Of a stretch of DNA of 64,000 nucleotides, positions 11,294 through 44,712 are shown piece by piece. The notes under the pieces were generated by a model, which was given only the letters and a program-made list of their open reading frames with translations, had not been told where the DNA came from and did no database searches. The position numbers were made by a program, and so were the translations under genes. The stretch is from positions 186,001 through 250,000 of the forward strand of contig NZ_CP090980.1 in assembly GCF_021513135.1 (NCBI RefSeq), written 5' to 3'. Source of the DNA: Vibrio sp. SS-MA-C1-2. GTDB lineage: Bacteria > Pseudomonadota > Gammaproteobacteria > Enterobacterales > Vibrionaceae. The first letter of the stretch is position 1. Each line of letters begins with the position of its first letter.

Positions 11294-12510
11294 ATGCCTT
11301 CAGAACAAACCATAAACCGACAACATATCGAAAAAATTGTAAAAATGGGAGATACACTTCATCGTTGTGGTTGCCCCCCTATAAAGTGGAAGATTATACT
11401 CATTACTATGCACAACAGAACAAGATTAATACCATTGTTCAAGCGACACCAACTGCCATAAATTATCAATTTCCAGATAGTGATAATACCGTAGTCATGA
11501 CGCGTACCGCTCCGGGTTCAATTAATTTAGGGATGCTCGCCAGTACTATCAACCACATCAATAACAACAGCAATAACAACAGCAATAACAACAGCAATAA
11601 TCAAAGTACGGAACAATTAAATGCAGAGTGCAAACGTTATCCAGCTTGGATTACAGCGATAGCTAACATGGCAATTCCACCCGCTTTTCTAATGCTAATA
11701 GGCAGCACCGTCGATGCTATTATCGCATCTATTTTCTTAGGATTAATGGTTTGGGGTTGTCAACTACTCTGTAAAGGAAGACGAGCAATTGCCGTCGAGT
11801 TTGTTGCAGCTCTATTCACTGGCGTTATTGTAGCCCTACTTAACAAGATGGGGTTAGATGTTTCAATTTGGTCTCTCTGTATTGCGAGTATTGTTCTCTT
11901 TGTCCCGGGACTCTCAATTGCAAACTCTCTGGAGTGTTTAGCGTTTAACGATCTGGTTTCAGGCACCAGTTTGTTAGGCCAATCGGTACTGACTCTGATC
12001 AAGTTGTTTACCGGAATCATTATTGGTCTTAATATTGGACAAGAATTTTGGGGTCCCAGTAATACGGTTGCTTATATTAATCAGGTTACATTGCCTCTAC
12101 ACATTATGAGCCTATTCATGATTTCAATTGCGATTGGAATTGTATTTAATGCGAGAGCTAAGGATATTCTTTTGGGCTTACCTGTTGCGATTCTTGGTAT
12201 GTGGGGTCCACTTCATTTAGATATCAATAATAGCTTAGTTGTTGGTACATGGCTAACCACGGTACTGATTACGCTATATGGAACTTGGTTGGCAAAACGT
12301 CTCAACCTAACTGGTTCTATCTTCATTGTGCAAGGAATTATTATTTTAGTACCCGGTAGTAGAGTCTTATTTAGTGCAAGCCAAACAGTGTTTGATCTTT
12401 CATTGATCCCGATTCCAAGCATTGGTTTATCTGCTCTATTTATGTTTTCAGCGATTGTTGCAGGTCAAATTACCGCTTATTCTCTCTATCCACCTAAAGC
12501 AAGTCATTAA
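11294..12510 (+). pseudogene. Threonine/serine exporter (ThrE family), frameshifted at a C6 run
   Basis: Inner-membrane amino-acid exporter of the ThrE/PF06738 family with a soluble N-terminal domain and about ten hydrophobic segments. The start at 11294 (MPSEQTINRQHIEKIVKMGD) reads in frame through TLHRCGCPP, then the run of six C at 11374-11379 shifts the frame. The continuation YKVEDYTHYYAQQNKIN occurs in the -1 frame, open from 11365 to 12510. Seven C would restore one ~405-residue protein. A 12-bp microsatellite encodes NNNS repeats in the linker (11560-11607). True mutation, phase variation and base-calling error are all possible. A terminator follows after an ERIC-like repeat. Confidence 0.82.
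11560..11607 (+). repeat. 12-bp in-frame microsatellite inside the ThrE gene
   Basis: AATAACAACAGC occurs three times in exact tandem (11560-11595), then a decayed fourth unit AATAATCAAAGT. It encodes NNNS repeats between the N-terminal soluble part and the membrane domain. Confidence 0.9.
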
Positions 12511-12526
12511 AATGTAGTTAAGATTT

Positions 12527-12654
12527 TATACCCTTCTTACTTGAAGTTGCTAGGTTGTTGGCTACGCTCATTCGCCCCAATCATATCGTACACCTATACT
12601 CATGAGGCCTCATTCACTTGCCGCCTACTAGCAACTCCAAATACTTTGGGTATA
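12527..12654 (-). repeat. ERIC-like palindromic repeat
   Basis: 128 bp in reverse orientation (TATACCCTTCTTACTTGAAG ... CCAAATACTTTGGGTATA), 17 bp after the ThrE stop. Confidence 0.9.
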
Positions 12655-13417: not shown

Positions 13418-15004
13418 TTAATTTGATGGAGTAAGGTGTTGATAGAGATCAGAGGCTTTTACCAACATTTGATAGCGATTTCTAAACGGATGCTCCAAGA
13501 TAGCCTTTTGTGCTATTTCTGTTTTATGTTTTTGAGTGTAAACAACCAACGCATCAGGATGTTCTTGTAACCATTTCATTGCATCAGGGCTGCTTTTAGG
13601 TAAAACCAGTGAGTGCTCTAACCGCCCTGTAAATTGATAAATATTAGGGTATTTTCCCCAATAAGCCACAGTCACTCCTTTATCTTGCTCTGCTTTAATT
13701 GCCATCGACATTGGCTCAATATCATACACTTTGTGCAACATTGGGCTCGCTGTCGAAACGACGGTCATAATAGTGATAGGCATCGCTAAAAAGAGGACTG
13801 AGAGATAATACCTTCCTAGCTTTTCACCACGATAAATCAACCATGCAAACGCCAATGGAATAATAAATAAAATCTCATAGACACTAGCGCTATCTGCAGT
13901 TTTAAATACTTTAGTTATCCAAAAACGACTGGTTAATAATGCTAACGACAAGATCAATAGTAAAGCGACAACTAAATATTCTTTAACAAACTTGTGCTGT
14001 AAATCGACTTTTGAAGCAAAGTAGATCGCTAACATCGGAAATGCAGGAAATAAGTAATGGATCTGTTTACCACTCACAAGACTAAATATAAGAAAGGTTG
14101 AAATAAACCCAATGAGTGTATATCTATCTCCTGTGCTAGCTATACGCCAAGTAGTTTTTCGCCATAATAATCGGATAAATATCCATGGCAGAGTCAAGAC
14201 TGGTAACATCTGAAGATACCAATAAGCAGGTCGAGCATGAGCGAAAGAATTCACCATTCGTCCTGCTGTTTGTCCCCATAAAAGTTCATTACGATACTCG
14301 GCACCACCAAAAATCACTGCAGGGATCACCCAAACTAAAATCACAGCAATACCAATTATAATGGCAATGAGTCCTTGTTTATACCAAACTTTTTTCTCTA
14401 CCATCTCGGTACTTTTCCAAAGCGGGTAAGCGAGAAATAACGGTAAGGTATAAATAAAAACAGCAGGTCCTTTCGTCAATAACCCACAGCCTAGTGCGAT
14501 GCCAGCTAAATAGATATACAAACGCTTTTCAGTCTGTGCAAATTTAAAACTAGTTAATAGGTAACTTAATACTGACACGGTTAATAACAGATCAAACATG
14601 GTCATGGTGGTATAAAGTAACCAACCAGAGAAACCAAGTAGAATTAGTGGGCTATAAACAACGCTACTCTTTTCTGGAAATAAGTTTTTCGATAGCTTAT
14701 AAATTAAAAAGAAGTTAATCAGAGAAAGAGTTGGCACAACCGCCCTAGCAACCCAGTCAGAAACACCAAATATTCCCCATGCAATATTGATGAGCCAGAA
14801 CATCATTGGGGGTTTATGTGCATAAGTATTGCCATTAATATGAGGAACTAGCCAATTGTTATGAATCCACATCTCCCAAGCAACAGAGACATAACGCGTT
14901 TCATCAATTGGAAATAGTGGACGCACAGTGAGTCCAACAAAAATGATTGTAAGAGCAGCAATTAAAGTAATAATCAGAGGTTGTCGGTGATTGATCTGTT
15001 CCAA
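13418..15004 (-). CDS. ArnT-like membrane glycosyltransferase (GT83/PMT_2)
   Basis: 528 residues with about 12 membrane helices. The first periplasmic loop has the signature DETRYVSVAWEM and GNTYAHKPPMMFWLIN, as in ArnT and related lipid-phosphate-sugar transferases. These enzymes take a sugar from an undecaprenyl-phosphate carrier on the periplasmic side and attach it to lipid A or another acceptor. The genes before it on the same strand encode a GT2 transferase and a TVP38 membrane protein, which together suggest a lipid-linked sugar pathway. No arnA, arnB or arnD is nearby, so aminoarabinose is not indicated and the sugar is unknown. Confidence 0.85.
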   Translation of the reverse strand: MEQINHRQPLIITLIAALTIIFVGLTVRPLFPIDETRYVSVAWEMWIHNNWLVPHINGNTYAHKPPMMFWLINIAWGIFGVSDWVARAVVPTLSLINFFLIYKLSKNLFPEKSSVVYSPLILLGFSGWLLYTTMTMFDLLLTVSVLSYLLTSFKFAQTEKRLYIYLAGIALGCGLLTKGPAVFIYTLPLFLAYPLWKSTEMVEKKVWYKQGLIAIIIGIAVILVWVIPAVIFGGAEYRNELLWGQTAGRMVNSFAHARPAYWYLQMLPVLTLPWIFIRLLWRKTTWRIASTGDRYTLIGFISTFLIFSLVSGKQIHYLFPAFPMLAIYFASKVDLQHKFVKEYLVVALLLILSLALLTSRFWITKVFKTADSASVYEILFIIPLAFAWLIYRGEKLGRYYLSVLFLAMPITIMTVVSTASPMLHKVYDIEPMSMAIKAEQDKGVTVAYWGKYPNIYQFTGRLEHSLVLPKSSPDAMKWLQEHPDALVVYTQKHKTEIAQKAILEHPFRNRYQMLVKASDLYQHLTPSN

Positions 15005-15048
15005 AATATCAACTCCAAAATAAAAATATATTCAGTAGAAAGTAGTAT

Positions 15049-15130
15049 TATACCTTTCTGACTTGAAGTCGCTAGGTTGTTGGCTGCACTCGTTCGCCGC
15101 CTACTAGCAACGCCAATTACTTTAGGTATA
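15049..15130 (-). repeat. Short-form ERIC-like repeat (internal deletion)
   Basis: 82 bp, reverse orientation. Both terminal inverted repeats are intact (TATACCTTTCTGACTTGAAG ... CAATTACTTTAGGTATA), but about 45 bp of the middle are missing at GTTCGCCGCCTACTAGCAAC. It lies between two co-directional genes of one probable operon. Confidence 0.88.
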
Positions 15131-15135
15131 TAAGT

Positions 15136-15798
15136 TTATTGCATCTCTTTTTTAACCATGTCTTTAATATAATGTCGATATAAATACCCCGTTAAAACCA
15201 AACTTAATACTGCGAGTACAATACTAACGATAACTTGAACTTCACTTGTTCCACCAATACCAGCTCCCGCTAAACAGAAGATAATGACTTGGGGGATGTA
15301 ACCAAGAAAGCTTGCCGAAATAAAGGGTAAAAATGGAACATTTAAACTTCCTGCAAAAATATTGGTCATTAGATTACTACCGATAGGGAATAATCGTAAT
15401 ATTAATATTTTAAGAAAGGCTTTATGCTCAACAAATTTTCGGAACTTTTGAAGTTTACGTGATGGATAATTCATCAACATTTGCTTTAAAGAGAACTTAG
15501 CAAAAAAGTACAGTAACCCCGCCGTAATAATATAAATCGCCATGGTTAAAACAATGCCATTACTGATGCCATAAATAAAACCATAGGAGAAGGCGATAAT
15601 CTGTTTTGGGCCCCCCATTCCAACTAATAACATTGAAAAAAGGAAAATGGTAATATGACCAGCCGTGCCATGACTATTTACATATTGAAATAGCCATTCA
15701 TTATTAAATAGATGTTGAGCAAATTCATTTTTAGATAAACCATATAAACTGGCAATTAATACTGCAAAAATAGCCAGCTTTACCCACTTATTCACCAA
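15136..15798 (-). CDS. TVP38/TMEM64 (SNARE-associated, DedA superfamily) membrane protein
   Basis: 220 residues with about six hydrophobic segments and the family's conserved central region (FSYGFIYG, then RLFPIGSNLMTNIFAG and LPFISASFLGYIPQ). DedA-superfamily proteins have been linked to recycling of undecaprenyl phosphate across the membrane. That fits its place between a GT2 and an ArnT-like transferase, both of which use that carrier, though the role here is inferred. The stop of the GT2 gene is 3 bp upstream of its start, so translation is probably coupled. An ERIC-like short form separates it from the ArnT-like gene. Confidence 0.85.
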   Translation of the reverse strand: MVNKWVKLAIFAVLIASLYGLSKNEFAQHLFNNEWLFQYVNSHGTAGHITIFLFSMLLVGMGGPKQIIAFSYGFIYGISNGIVLTMAIYIITAGLLYFFAKFSLKQMLMNYPSRKLQKFRKFVEHKAFLKILILRLFPIGSNLMTNIFAGSLNVPFLPFISASFLGYIPQVIIFCLAGAGIGGTSEVQVIVSIVLAVLSLVLTGYLYRHYIKDMVKKEMQ

Positions 15799-15801
15799 GT
15801 T

Positions 15802-16533
15802 TTACTCCGAACGTTCAACGGTATATTCAGGACGCTTTGCTCGTTTAACAAGCCATATTACGCCCATAATATCAACGATGCCCACCCATACTCGATTCCA
15901 AGCCGTATAATTTGACACCCCTTCCATACGATCACGATGATCAACAGGAGAAACTTGGATCTCTCCGCCAATACGTTTAATCAATGCAGGAAGAAAACGA
16001 TGCATATGGTCAAAATAAGGAAGTGATAAAAAAGTTTCTCTTGGGAAAATTTTAAGACCACACCCCGAATCAGGTACCCCATCATTCAATAAACTTTGAC
16101 GAACTTTGTTGGCAACTTTTGATTGAAAACGAATCCATTCGGTATCTTTACGTTTGTTTCGATAACCAGCAATACAGTAATGAGGGTTTTCAACTTTCAG
16201 TGCCAGCTCTAACATAGCAGGAATATCTGCCGGGTTATTTTGACCGTCAGCATCAAGTGTAACGATAATGGTTCCACGCGCACTCTTTACAGCCGAATGA
16301 ACGGCGGTACTTTGACCACAACTAAACTTATGTTTGACAATTTGTAATGCACAAGCAAGCTCTTTAGCCGTTGAAAACGCCTCATCAACAGTGCCATCAG
16401 TGCTGCCATCATCAGTAATAACAATCTCAAACTCAGTAATATCTTTAATTGCACTATTAATTTCGGTAATAAGTTGACCAATATTGCCCTGCTCATTTTT
16501 TGCAGGTATAACAACGGAAACAAGTTGTGACAT
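15802..16533 (-). CDS. GT2 glycosyltransferase, polyprenyl-phosphate sugar synthase type
   Basis: 243 residues, GT-A fold. It starts VSVVIPAKNEQGNIGQL. The nucleotide-sugar motifs ITDDGSTDGT and TLDADGQNNPADIP (DxD-like) are present. The C-terminal VGIVDIMGVIWLVKRAKRP suggests membrane association but not the two helices of ArnC or GtrB. Relatives (DPM1-type) place a sugar on dolichyl or undecaprenyl phosphate at the cytoplasmic face. It is first in a three-gene operon with the TVP38 and ArnT-like genes. The sugar is not identifiable. Confidence 0.85.
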   Translation of the reverse strand: MSQLVSVVIPAKNEQGNIGQLITEINSAIKDITEFEIVITDDGSTDGTVDEAFSTAKELACALQIVKHKFSCGQSTAVHSAVKSARGTIIVTLDADGQNNPADIPAMLELALKVENPHYCIAGYRNKRKDTEWIRFQSKVANKVRQSLLNDGVPDSGCGLKIFPRETFLSLPYFDHMHRFLPALIKRIGGEIQVSPVDHRDRMEGVSNYTAWNRVWVGIVDIMGVIWLVKRAKRPEYTVERSE

Positions 16534-43782: not shown

Positions 43783-44712
43783 ATGAATCAATACCTTAAA
43801 ACATTTTTCAAAGGCATGGCAATGGGTGCCGCCGACGTTATCCCAGGTGTATCTGGAGGAACGATTGCTTTTATTACAGGGATCTATGACACGCTACTTG
43901 AGAGTATTCGCCGTGTAAATCCAAGCATATTTGGCCTTTGGAAGAAACAAGGATTAAACGCTGTTTTAACCCATATTAATGCTAAATTTCTTATTGCTGT
44001 TTTTGGCGGCATAATTACCAGCATCTTCACGTTAGCGCGTTTGATTACTTGGTTATTAGAGACACATCCAATCCCTCTTTGGTCATTCTTTTTTGGTCTC
44101 ATTATCATTTCAGTCATTTTCATGCTTAGACAAGTTGAAAAATGGCAAGCTTTTAAGGCTGTTGTTTTGATTATTGGCGCTATCTTTGCGTGGACAATCA
44201 CAATTATTAGCCCTATTACTTTAGAGCCAACCAATATTAATATTTTGTTTGGTGGTGCATTAGCTATCTGTGCAATGATTTTGCCCGGTATTTCTGGTAG
44301 CTTTATCCTATTATTACTTGGCTTATATGGGCCGGTTATCGGTGCAGTAAAAGCATTCGATGGAACGACATTACTGCTTTTCTTATCCGGTTGTATTATT
44401 GGGCTATTAAGCTTCTCGCATCTTCTCTCTTGGTTACTAAAGCATGCTCGAGATTACGCCCTCTGCTTCTTAACCGGGTTAATGGTTGGCACTTTAGGTA
44501 AAATGTGGCCATGGAAAGAAGTATTAACTTGGAGAACAAACTCTAAAGGTGTTGAGGTGCCTTTAGTTGAGCAAAATCTAATGCCTCATACTTTCGAACA
44601 AGTAACGGGTCAACCAGCCCTTATCGGTTGGGCAGTTATTGCGATGGTTGCAGGTATTGTTATCGTTGGCTCTTTAGAGTTATTTGCTGATAAAGATCAC
44701 GATAAAAAATAG
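43783..44712 (+). CDS. DUF368 membrane protein (undecaprenyl-phosphate translocase family)
   Basis: 309 residues with about eight membrane helices. The signature MGAADVIPGVSGGTIAFITG and ICAMILPGISGSFILLLLGL carry the conserved GxSGG and PGISG loops. DUF368 proteins were assigned in 2023 to recycling of undecaprenyl phosphate to the cytoplasmic face (PopT). The role here follows from family membership. A terminator follows. It stands alone, well separated from the GT2-TVP38-ArnT-like operon. Confidence 0.88.
   Translation: MNQYLKTFFKGMAMGAADVIPGVSGGTIAFITGIYDTLLESIRRVNPSIFGLWKKQGLNAVLTHINAKFLIAVFGGIITSIFTLARLITWLLETHPIPLWSFFFGLIIISVIFMLRQVEKWQAFKAVVLIIGAIFAWTITIISPITLEPTNINILFGGALAICAMILPGISGSFILLLLGLYGPVIGAVKAFDGTTLLLFLSGCIIGLLSFSHLLSWLLKHARDYALCFLTGLMVGTLGKMWPWKEVLTWRTNSKGVEVPLVEQNLMPHTFEQVTGQPALIGWAVIAMVAGIVIVGSLELFADKDHDKK

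Follow-up and report, generated by a model that had tools for sequence, protein, structure and literature searches.

The operon and its enzymes

We analyzed a three-gene operon in a 64,000-nucleotide stretch of the Vibrio sp. SS-MA-C1-2 contig NZ_CP090980.1 (positions 186,001 to 250,000; hereafter the window) that may encode a complete system for periplasmic glycosylation. Positions 13418-16533 of the window are occupied by exactly three consecutive minus-strand open reading frames (ORFs) in the order GT2-VTT-PMT, encoding a glycosyltransferase of the GT2 family, a VTT/TVP38 membrane protein of the DedA superfamily, and an ArnT-like transferase of the PMT family (Table 1). A preliminary description of this DNA had placed the same three genes side by side, and Pfam matches support its assignments. 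The genome totals 4.33 Mb on three contigs, and the window belongs to the one of 1.04 Mb (C1).

The GT2 protein is a putative polyprenyl-phosphate sugar synthase. Its best solved relative in the PDB is ArnC (9hwj, E 5.3e-21), followed by dolichyl-phosphate mannose synthase (DPMS; 5mlz) and sll0501 (5eke), which we take to be the GtrB structure. Hydropathy predicts no membrane helix in the window GT2 or in 138 of 142 GT2 proteins compared, and two each in E. coli ArnC and YfdH/GtrB. The PMT profile has a sole match in the PDB, ArnT (5ezm, E 7.4e-38), and the protein is probably a GT-C transferase.

Despite these resemblances to the 4-amino-4-deoxy-L-arabinose (L-Ara4N) pathway (ArnBCADTEF), whose ArnC and ArnT are the nearest solved structures, the two enzymes fall far under the NCBIfam equivalog cut-offs (86.4 of 529 bits for ArnC and 113.6 of 567 bits for ArnT). 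No bifunctional ArnA came up in a whole-genome search with E. coli ArnA; its three partial matches, at three separate places (30%, 29% and 28% identity, in frames of 322, 335 and 217 amino acids), are likely Fmt, an epimerase and a third relative. ArnB, ArnD and ArnE were not found at the locus; the whole-genome search covered ArnA only. The earlier statement that aminoarabinose genes are missing is thus borne out for ArnA, and on its absence we rejected the aminoarabinose pathway and consider aminoarabinose itself an unlikely sugar. Judged by its gene content, an ArnC-like synthase, a membrane protein and an ArnT-like transferase without ArnA, the operon looks like the complete lipid-linked sugar system that had been proposed.

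The trio is present twice more in this genome in the same order, on C1 and on a 218 kb contig (C3). The proteins of these two copies are 82% (GT2), 61% (VTT) and 68% (PMT) identical to those of the window. The two copies themselves lie in a 4095-bp segment of 99.5% identity, which includes a cytochrome b561-like gene as well as the trio (L039, 5599-9692, on C1; L040 on C3) and is probably a recent duplication. The DNA of the C3 copy had no match among plasmid records.

The GT2 and VTT ORFs as listed are 3 nt apart. Translation of VTT likely starts one codon further in, at the GTG at 15795, where a GGAG ribosome site overlaps the GT2 stop; PMT starts with TTG, likewise behind a GGAG. Between VTT and PMT lies a gap of 131 bp with a repeat that we presume to be ERIC-like; this repeat is missing from both other copies of the operon, where the gap is 56 bp. 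The similar repeat listed in Table 1, to which we give the same presumed label, scores 67 bits against Rfam V_AS5, under the cut-off of 96. An ORF adjoining the trio on the plus strand (11365-12510) encodes a ThrE-type threonine/serine exporter (PF06738, PF12821) and lies outside it. The DUF368 gene that the preliminary description had noticed in the window carries PF04018; it lies about 27 kb away, outside the operon, and no tie between it and the trio was found, although no search aimed at one was made.

Table 1. Positions in the window of the operon genes and of two further features
Feature	Position	Strand	Details
GT2, ArnC/GtrB/DPM-synthase-like putative polyprenyl-phosphate sugar synthase	15802..16533	-	243 aa; PF00535 E 6.8e-24
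VTT/TVP38 (DedA-superfamily) membrane protein, candidate flippase	15136..15798	-	220 aa; PF09335 E 6.1e-16
ArnT-like probable GT-C (PMT family) glycosyltransferase	13418..15004	-	528 aa; PF13231 E 2.9e-17, PF02366
ERIC-like repeat (presumed label), VTT/PMT gap	15049..15130	.	similar repeat at 12527-12654
DUF368 (PF04018) gene, context only, outside the system	43783..44712	+	at C1:229822-230553, inside this ORF

Two membrane proteins in one operon position

The GT2-VTT-PMT order recurs in distant genera of the Pseudomonadota. Because the same three genes stand in the same order there and twice more in this genome, we regard the trio as beyond chance. The preliminary description had named a failure of the three genes to co-occur elsewhere as the observation that would count against it, and this is not what is found. 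It had also suggested that conservation across the Vibrionaceae be checked, and here the outcome is negative: a close VTT (E below 1e-20) is present in only 2 of 61 genomes of the family. Among 100 genomes searched, the window's own included, five have a close VTT, and four of these have the trio.

What usually takes the place of VTT elsewhere is a protein with a LAB_N domain (PF07578, confirmed by Pfam in 6 of 6 proteins tested). A scan of named genomes with a GT2 profile was restricted to the best 80 of at least 577 relatives, ranked by likeness to VTT-linked GT2s, so that VTT was favoured. Among these best 80 loci, VTT directly follows GT2 in 41, LAB_N in 28, neither in 11, and both in none. 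No same-strand PMT gene lies within reach at 20 of the 41 VTT loci, and five of these 20 are truncated after GT2 (11 of the 20 were inspected); VTT therefore seems to follow the synthase and not the transferase. Across 142 loci, all 57 VTT genes and 63 of 64 LAB_N genes lie downstream of GT2 on its strand; the remaining LAB_N gene is on the opposite strand. The 11 VTT loci in the class bin of the locus comparison comprise ten loci and the window.

Because the profile scan favours VTT-linked GT2s, 369 genomes were drawn evenly from the Gammaproteobacteria, with thresholds of E 1e-20 for VTT, 1e-8 for LAB_N and 1e-50 for GT2, the GT2 model being built solely from VTT-linked members. This draw contains 61 GT2 genes in 59 genomes (one genome, G127, is omitted from the architecture count). 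VTT follows 14 of these genes, one of them (in G248) as a weak and atypical match; LAB_N stands beside 36, in 35 cases on the same strand; 11 have neither neighbour and none has both. For the 11 without a neighbour, VTT is encoded elsewhere in five genomes and LAB_N elsewhere in three. No genome of the 369 has both proteins at these thresholds. Counted by genome, the 59 divide into 17 with VTT, 39 with LAB_N and three with neither (p 4e-12, ancestry ignored). Counted by family, there are 11 with VTT, 28 with LAB_N, and one with both in different genomes (p 8e-7, again ignoring ancestry). One genus includes a VTT genome (G179) and a LAB_N genome (G303).

In a second draw, taken from the phylum, 249 genomes were scored by co-occurrence within the genome, with a strong VTT defined by E below 1e-40. 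The 44 GT2 genomes of this draw, seven of which also belong to the first draw, include all 33 LAB_N genomes, six with a strong VTT and five with neither. The exclusion has p 0.0019 for the 37 new genomes and 5e-15 for all 96, with one LAB_N genome that also has a weak VTT hit counted as LAB_N only.

A four-helix protein of 141-190 amino acids directly follows GT2 in four genomes with neither VTT nor LAB_N (L258, 4824-5249; L261, 4801-5244; L259, 3265-3837, minus strand; L263, 3264-3836, minus strand). Three copies were scanned, and gave no NCBIfam match and a single sub-threshold Pfam hit. We rejected this protein as a clean third alternative for the slot: although four of the five such genomes in the second draw have it after GT2, the fifth has it unlinked, and so do nine of 22 LAB_N genomes checked (of 33).

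Predicted folds and tip residues

The window VTT scores 59.4 bits against PF09335 (cut-off 33.9). Its AlphaFold model (pLDDT 90.5) shows two broken helices of the re-entrant type (RH1 and RH2), with breaks at residues 61-64 and 137-141. The tip motifs coincide with both breaks: K65 at RH1, and R135 followed by G140-S141-N142 at RH2. VTT proteins adjoining GT2 mostly carry G-x-P-(R/K)-Q at RH1 and P-x-G-(S/N)-N at RH2. An arginine or lysine at the RH1 tip is found in 54 of 54 GT2-linked proteins (54 of the 57 VTT loci, with L040, L055 and L120 left out), in five of five unlinked ones and in seven of seven without a GT2 neighbour; among other VTT proteins it occurs in one of 11, a fragment. Three GT2-linked proteins (L072, L075 and L248) keep the basic residue and are divergent elsewhere. 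At L055 (5698-7860) the VTT gene is split; its two ORFs lie about 1.4 kb from each other and flank an ORF of 307 amino acids.

These residues set the clade apart from named relatives. In the available portion of Todor et al. 2023 (PMC10127716), recycling of undecaprenyl phosphate (Und-P) is associated with an acidic RH1 residue and two basic RH2 residues, and COG0398, which has no acidic RH1 residue and lacks one or both of the basic RH2 residues, is judged unlikely to move Und-P. The window VTT has a basic residue at the RH1 tip and one basic residue at RH2 (R135), and thus differs from the UptA type. We take COG0398 as the nearest named group: the clade shares with it the absence of the acidic RH1 residue and of one RH2 basic residue, and adds the basic RH1 residue. 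Most members have GxP(R/K)Q and PxG(S/N)N in place of the tips of COG0398 proper, which we took from YdjX, YdjZ and other VTT proteins without a COG profile (in these the RH1 proline is followed by a small residue and RH2 mostly reads P-x-x-P-F/Y). In a VTT tree (L059, L002, L005 and YqjA omitted), the root split from YdjX/YdjZ-type and other proteins is weak (support 60). The five unlinked proteins are nested among GT2-linked ones, and six of the seven without GT2, all but L141, form a clade of their own (support 94).

LAB_N, which is PQ-loop/SemiSWEET-like, has an unrelated predicted fold, of three helices rather than the DedA fold; it takes the same operon slot in other genomes. A model of LAB_N (pLDDT 82.9) compared with the PDB gave SemiSWEET chains at all of ranks 1-14, with probability 1.00 and TM-scores of 0.56-0.83. 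Two loci encode tandem LAB_N units in one protein (L201, 5669-6394; L271, 7396-8097, minus strand), as a half-transporter would lead one to expect. An identity of LAB_N with RgtF was considered and rejected, since RgtF is a GalA transferase.

A candidate flippase and its alternatives

The reading that we prefer, with a probability of roughly 0.6, is a three-component periplasmic glycosylation system whose polyprenyl-phosphate sugar is flipped by VTT, or by LAB_N in related systems. By homology to ArnC, GtrB and DPMS, GT2 would place a single sugar from a nucleotide sugar on polyprenyl phosphate at the cytoplasmic face. VTT, or LAB_N in the same position elsewhere, would move the loaded lipid to the periplasmic face, as slot occupancy and near-exclusivity suggest. 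The ArnT-like GT-C enzyme would then pass the sugar to an acceptor in the periplasm, for which homology to ArnT and the neighbouring genes at some loci make lipid A or lipopolysaccharide (LPS) the likeliest candidate. We regard the middle gene as the probable mover, since an unrelated transporter-like protein usually fills its place elsewhere and the two almost never occur together.

This arrangement resembles GtrABC-type systems (GtrA, GtrB and a GT-C enzyme), in which a polyprenyl-phosphate-sugar synthase, a GT-C enzyme and a membrane protein are likewise joined in one unit. However, the GT2 here is ArnC-like and has no hydropathy-predicted membrane helices, and VTT (or LAB_N) takes the middle place instead of a GtrA/SMR-type or MATE protein. 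No flippase of GtrA/SMR/ArnEF or MATE type is in the slot, where PF09335 is found instead, and at E 1e-8 single-sequence queries with GtrA and ArnE (ArnF and MATE were not searched) matched nothing in the 142 loci. Possible named relatives are Bordetella lgmABCD and Francisella FlmF/FlmK; lgmD is reported as not essential. The three-component version for pentofuranoses uses a MATE-family flippase and other known versions a GtrA/SMR-type one, but flipping by the SMR- and MATE-type candidates has yet to be demonstrated directly, according to Kelly et al. 2024 (PMC11127046). No proposal of VTT or LAB_N as the flippase of such a system was found in the portions of the open-licence literature consulted.

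Neighbouring genes offer hints to the acceptor. The trio occurs on plasmids of Alteromonas, Salinimonas and Glaciecola, within metal-resistance regions in the four records viewed (of six). In three of these four, which include one operon twice, EptA and diacylglycerol kinase come after the trio and a divergent two-component system lies upstream. At two Pseudomonas loci the LAB_N version adjoins ArnA/ArnB. Elsewhere EptA is found at one and DgkA at two of 57 VTT loci, and EptA at one of 64 LAB_N loci. Lipid A or LPS is thus a likely acceptor, but one that is not settled because such neighbourhoods are rare in other loci.

The preliminary description had suggested that the membrane protein might recycle or flip the carrier. 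Recycling, in which VTT (and likewise LAB_N elsewhere) would carry bare polyprenyl phosphate back to the cytoplasmic side once the transferase has released it, seems to us an unlikely explanation. It draws on precedent, since Und-P is flipped by DedA and DUF368 proteins and is freed directly in the L-Ara4N pathway (PMC12826051), and the position in the operon suits either direction. Table 2 of the same review names arnD/E/F/T and gtrA/gtrS as associated with Und-P sequestration, and arnC and gtrB as not associated. Although VTT shares its domain with the UptA/DedA (COG0586) recyclers and not with PopT/DUF368, it differs from both groups in its basic RH1 tip, single basic RH2 residue and tie to one synthase; the expectation for Und-P flippases (Todor et al. 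2023, in the portion cited above) is two basic RH2 residues, and the 54 GT2-linked proteins are uniformly basic where an acidic RH1 residue would be expected. Moreover, recycling is a general need, the genome already has the DUF368 gene and four VTT-domain genes outside the trios, and a recycler would have no need to accompany one particular synthase. The tip residues and the alternation with SemiSWEET-like LAB_N lead us to place recycling behind flipping of the loaded carrier, the other half of the original suggestion.

Less probable still is that VTT and LAB_N anchor or stabilize a soluble GT2 in the membrane while another protein flips the lipid, much as DPM2 and DPM3 reportedly do for human DPM1. 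The near-universal lack of hydropathy-predicted membrane helices in these GT2s would fit such a role, as would the association of VTT and LAB_N with GT2 at loci that have no PMT gene nearby. However, a DedA-type protein with two broken helices and a SemiSWEET-like fold are transporter-like and elaborate for anchors, and single-sequence queries with GtrA and ArnE revealed no usual flippase gene beside GT2 in the 142 loci. We consider it very improbable that VTT is a general phospholipid scramblase that stands beside GT2 through operon history only, a notion to which the proposed scrambling by COG0398 and the VTT relatives without GT2 lend some weight, in view of the repeated adjacency in distant genera, the conserved order, the tip motif of its own and the near-exclusion with LAB_N.

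Several observations weigh against a flipping role for VTT and LAB_N. In the first draw, GT2 is absent at E 1e-50 from 10 of 27 VTT genomes (six with strong hits) and from six of 45 LAB_N genomes; in the second, two of eight strong-VTT genomes (G657 and G671) have none at the cut-off. Eight of the 96 GT2 genomes have neither slot protein, and a single genome, G609, has both at the looser VTT threshold: its LAB_N is accompanied by a fused frame of 703 amino acids that matches VTT weakly (E 2.9e-21). Three VTT genes of the clade without a GT2 neighbour (L043, 7460-9960; L127, 1486-3620; L131, 1471-3605) are followed by an amidohydrolase-like gene (Amidohydro_3 by Pfam in L043, and by eye, from a shared opening sequence, in L127 and L131), which suggests a second role of the clade. 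One GtrA gene is present elsewhere in the Vibrio genome, away from the trio. Foldseek found no match under E 0.001 between the VTT model and solved structures, and therefore no transport path can be read from it; the E-values of the LAB_N fold matches are modest, 0.012 at best, with none under 0.001. COG0398 is itself proposed to be a phospholipid scramblase in the portion of Todor et al. 2023 available (PMC10127716).

The number of exchanges between VTT and LAB_N is likewise uncertain. A quick GT2 tree implies 12 changes. A more careful tree (two outgroups and L249, L248, L121 and L040 omitted) implies eight; among 200 bootstrap trees the middle 90% imply 8-10, and none implies one. However, the starred branches force one change only, or four if 80/80 branches are kept, and a single VTT clade is not rejected by the approximately unbiased (AU) test (p 0.176). 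Repeated exchange was therefore set aside as proof of equivalence; because the AU test leaves one VTT clade possible, we claim near-exclusion and give no number of exchanges.

With these points considered, flipping of the loaded lipid by VTT or LAB_N remains our preferred reading. The broader proposal, that a distinct VTT clade and SemiSWEET-like LAB_N are interchangeable flippases of polyprenyl-phosphate-linked monosaccharides, is tentative, and we hold it at somewhat less than even odds. Since two unrelated membrane proteins alternate in one slot, the question of the flippase is open to tests by gene deletion and exchange. MPDU1, a protein needed for the use of dolichol-phosphate sugars, is listed among PQ-loop proteins in the part of Saudek 2012 (PMC3281891) available. 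If the proposal is true, this eukaryotic protein and VTT scramblases would become candidates for the unidentified scramblases of dolichol-phosphate sugars, and bacterial lipid-linked sugar systems would gain two new flippase families. It would also assign a definite function to LAB_N and to one portion of the DedA superfamily that is distinct from the known Und-P recyclers.

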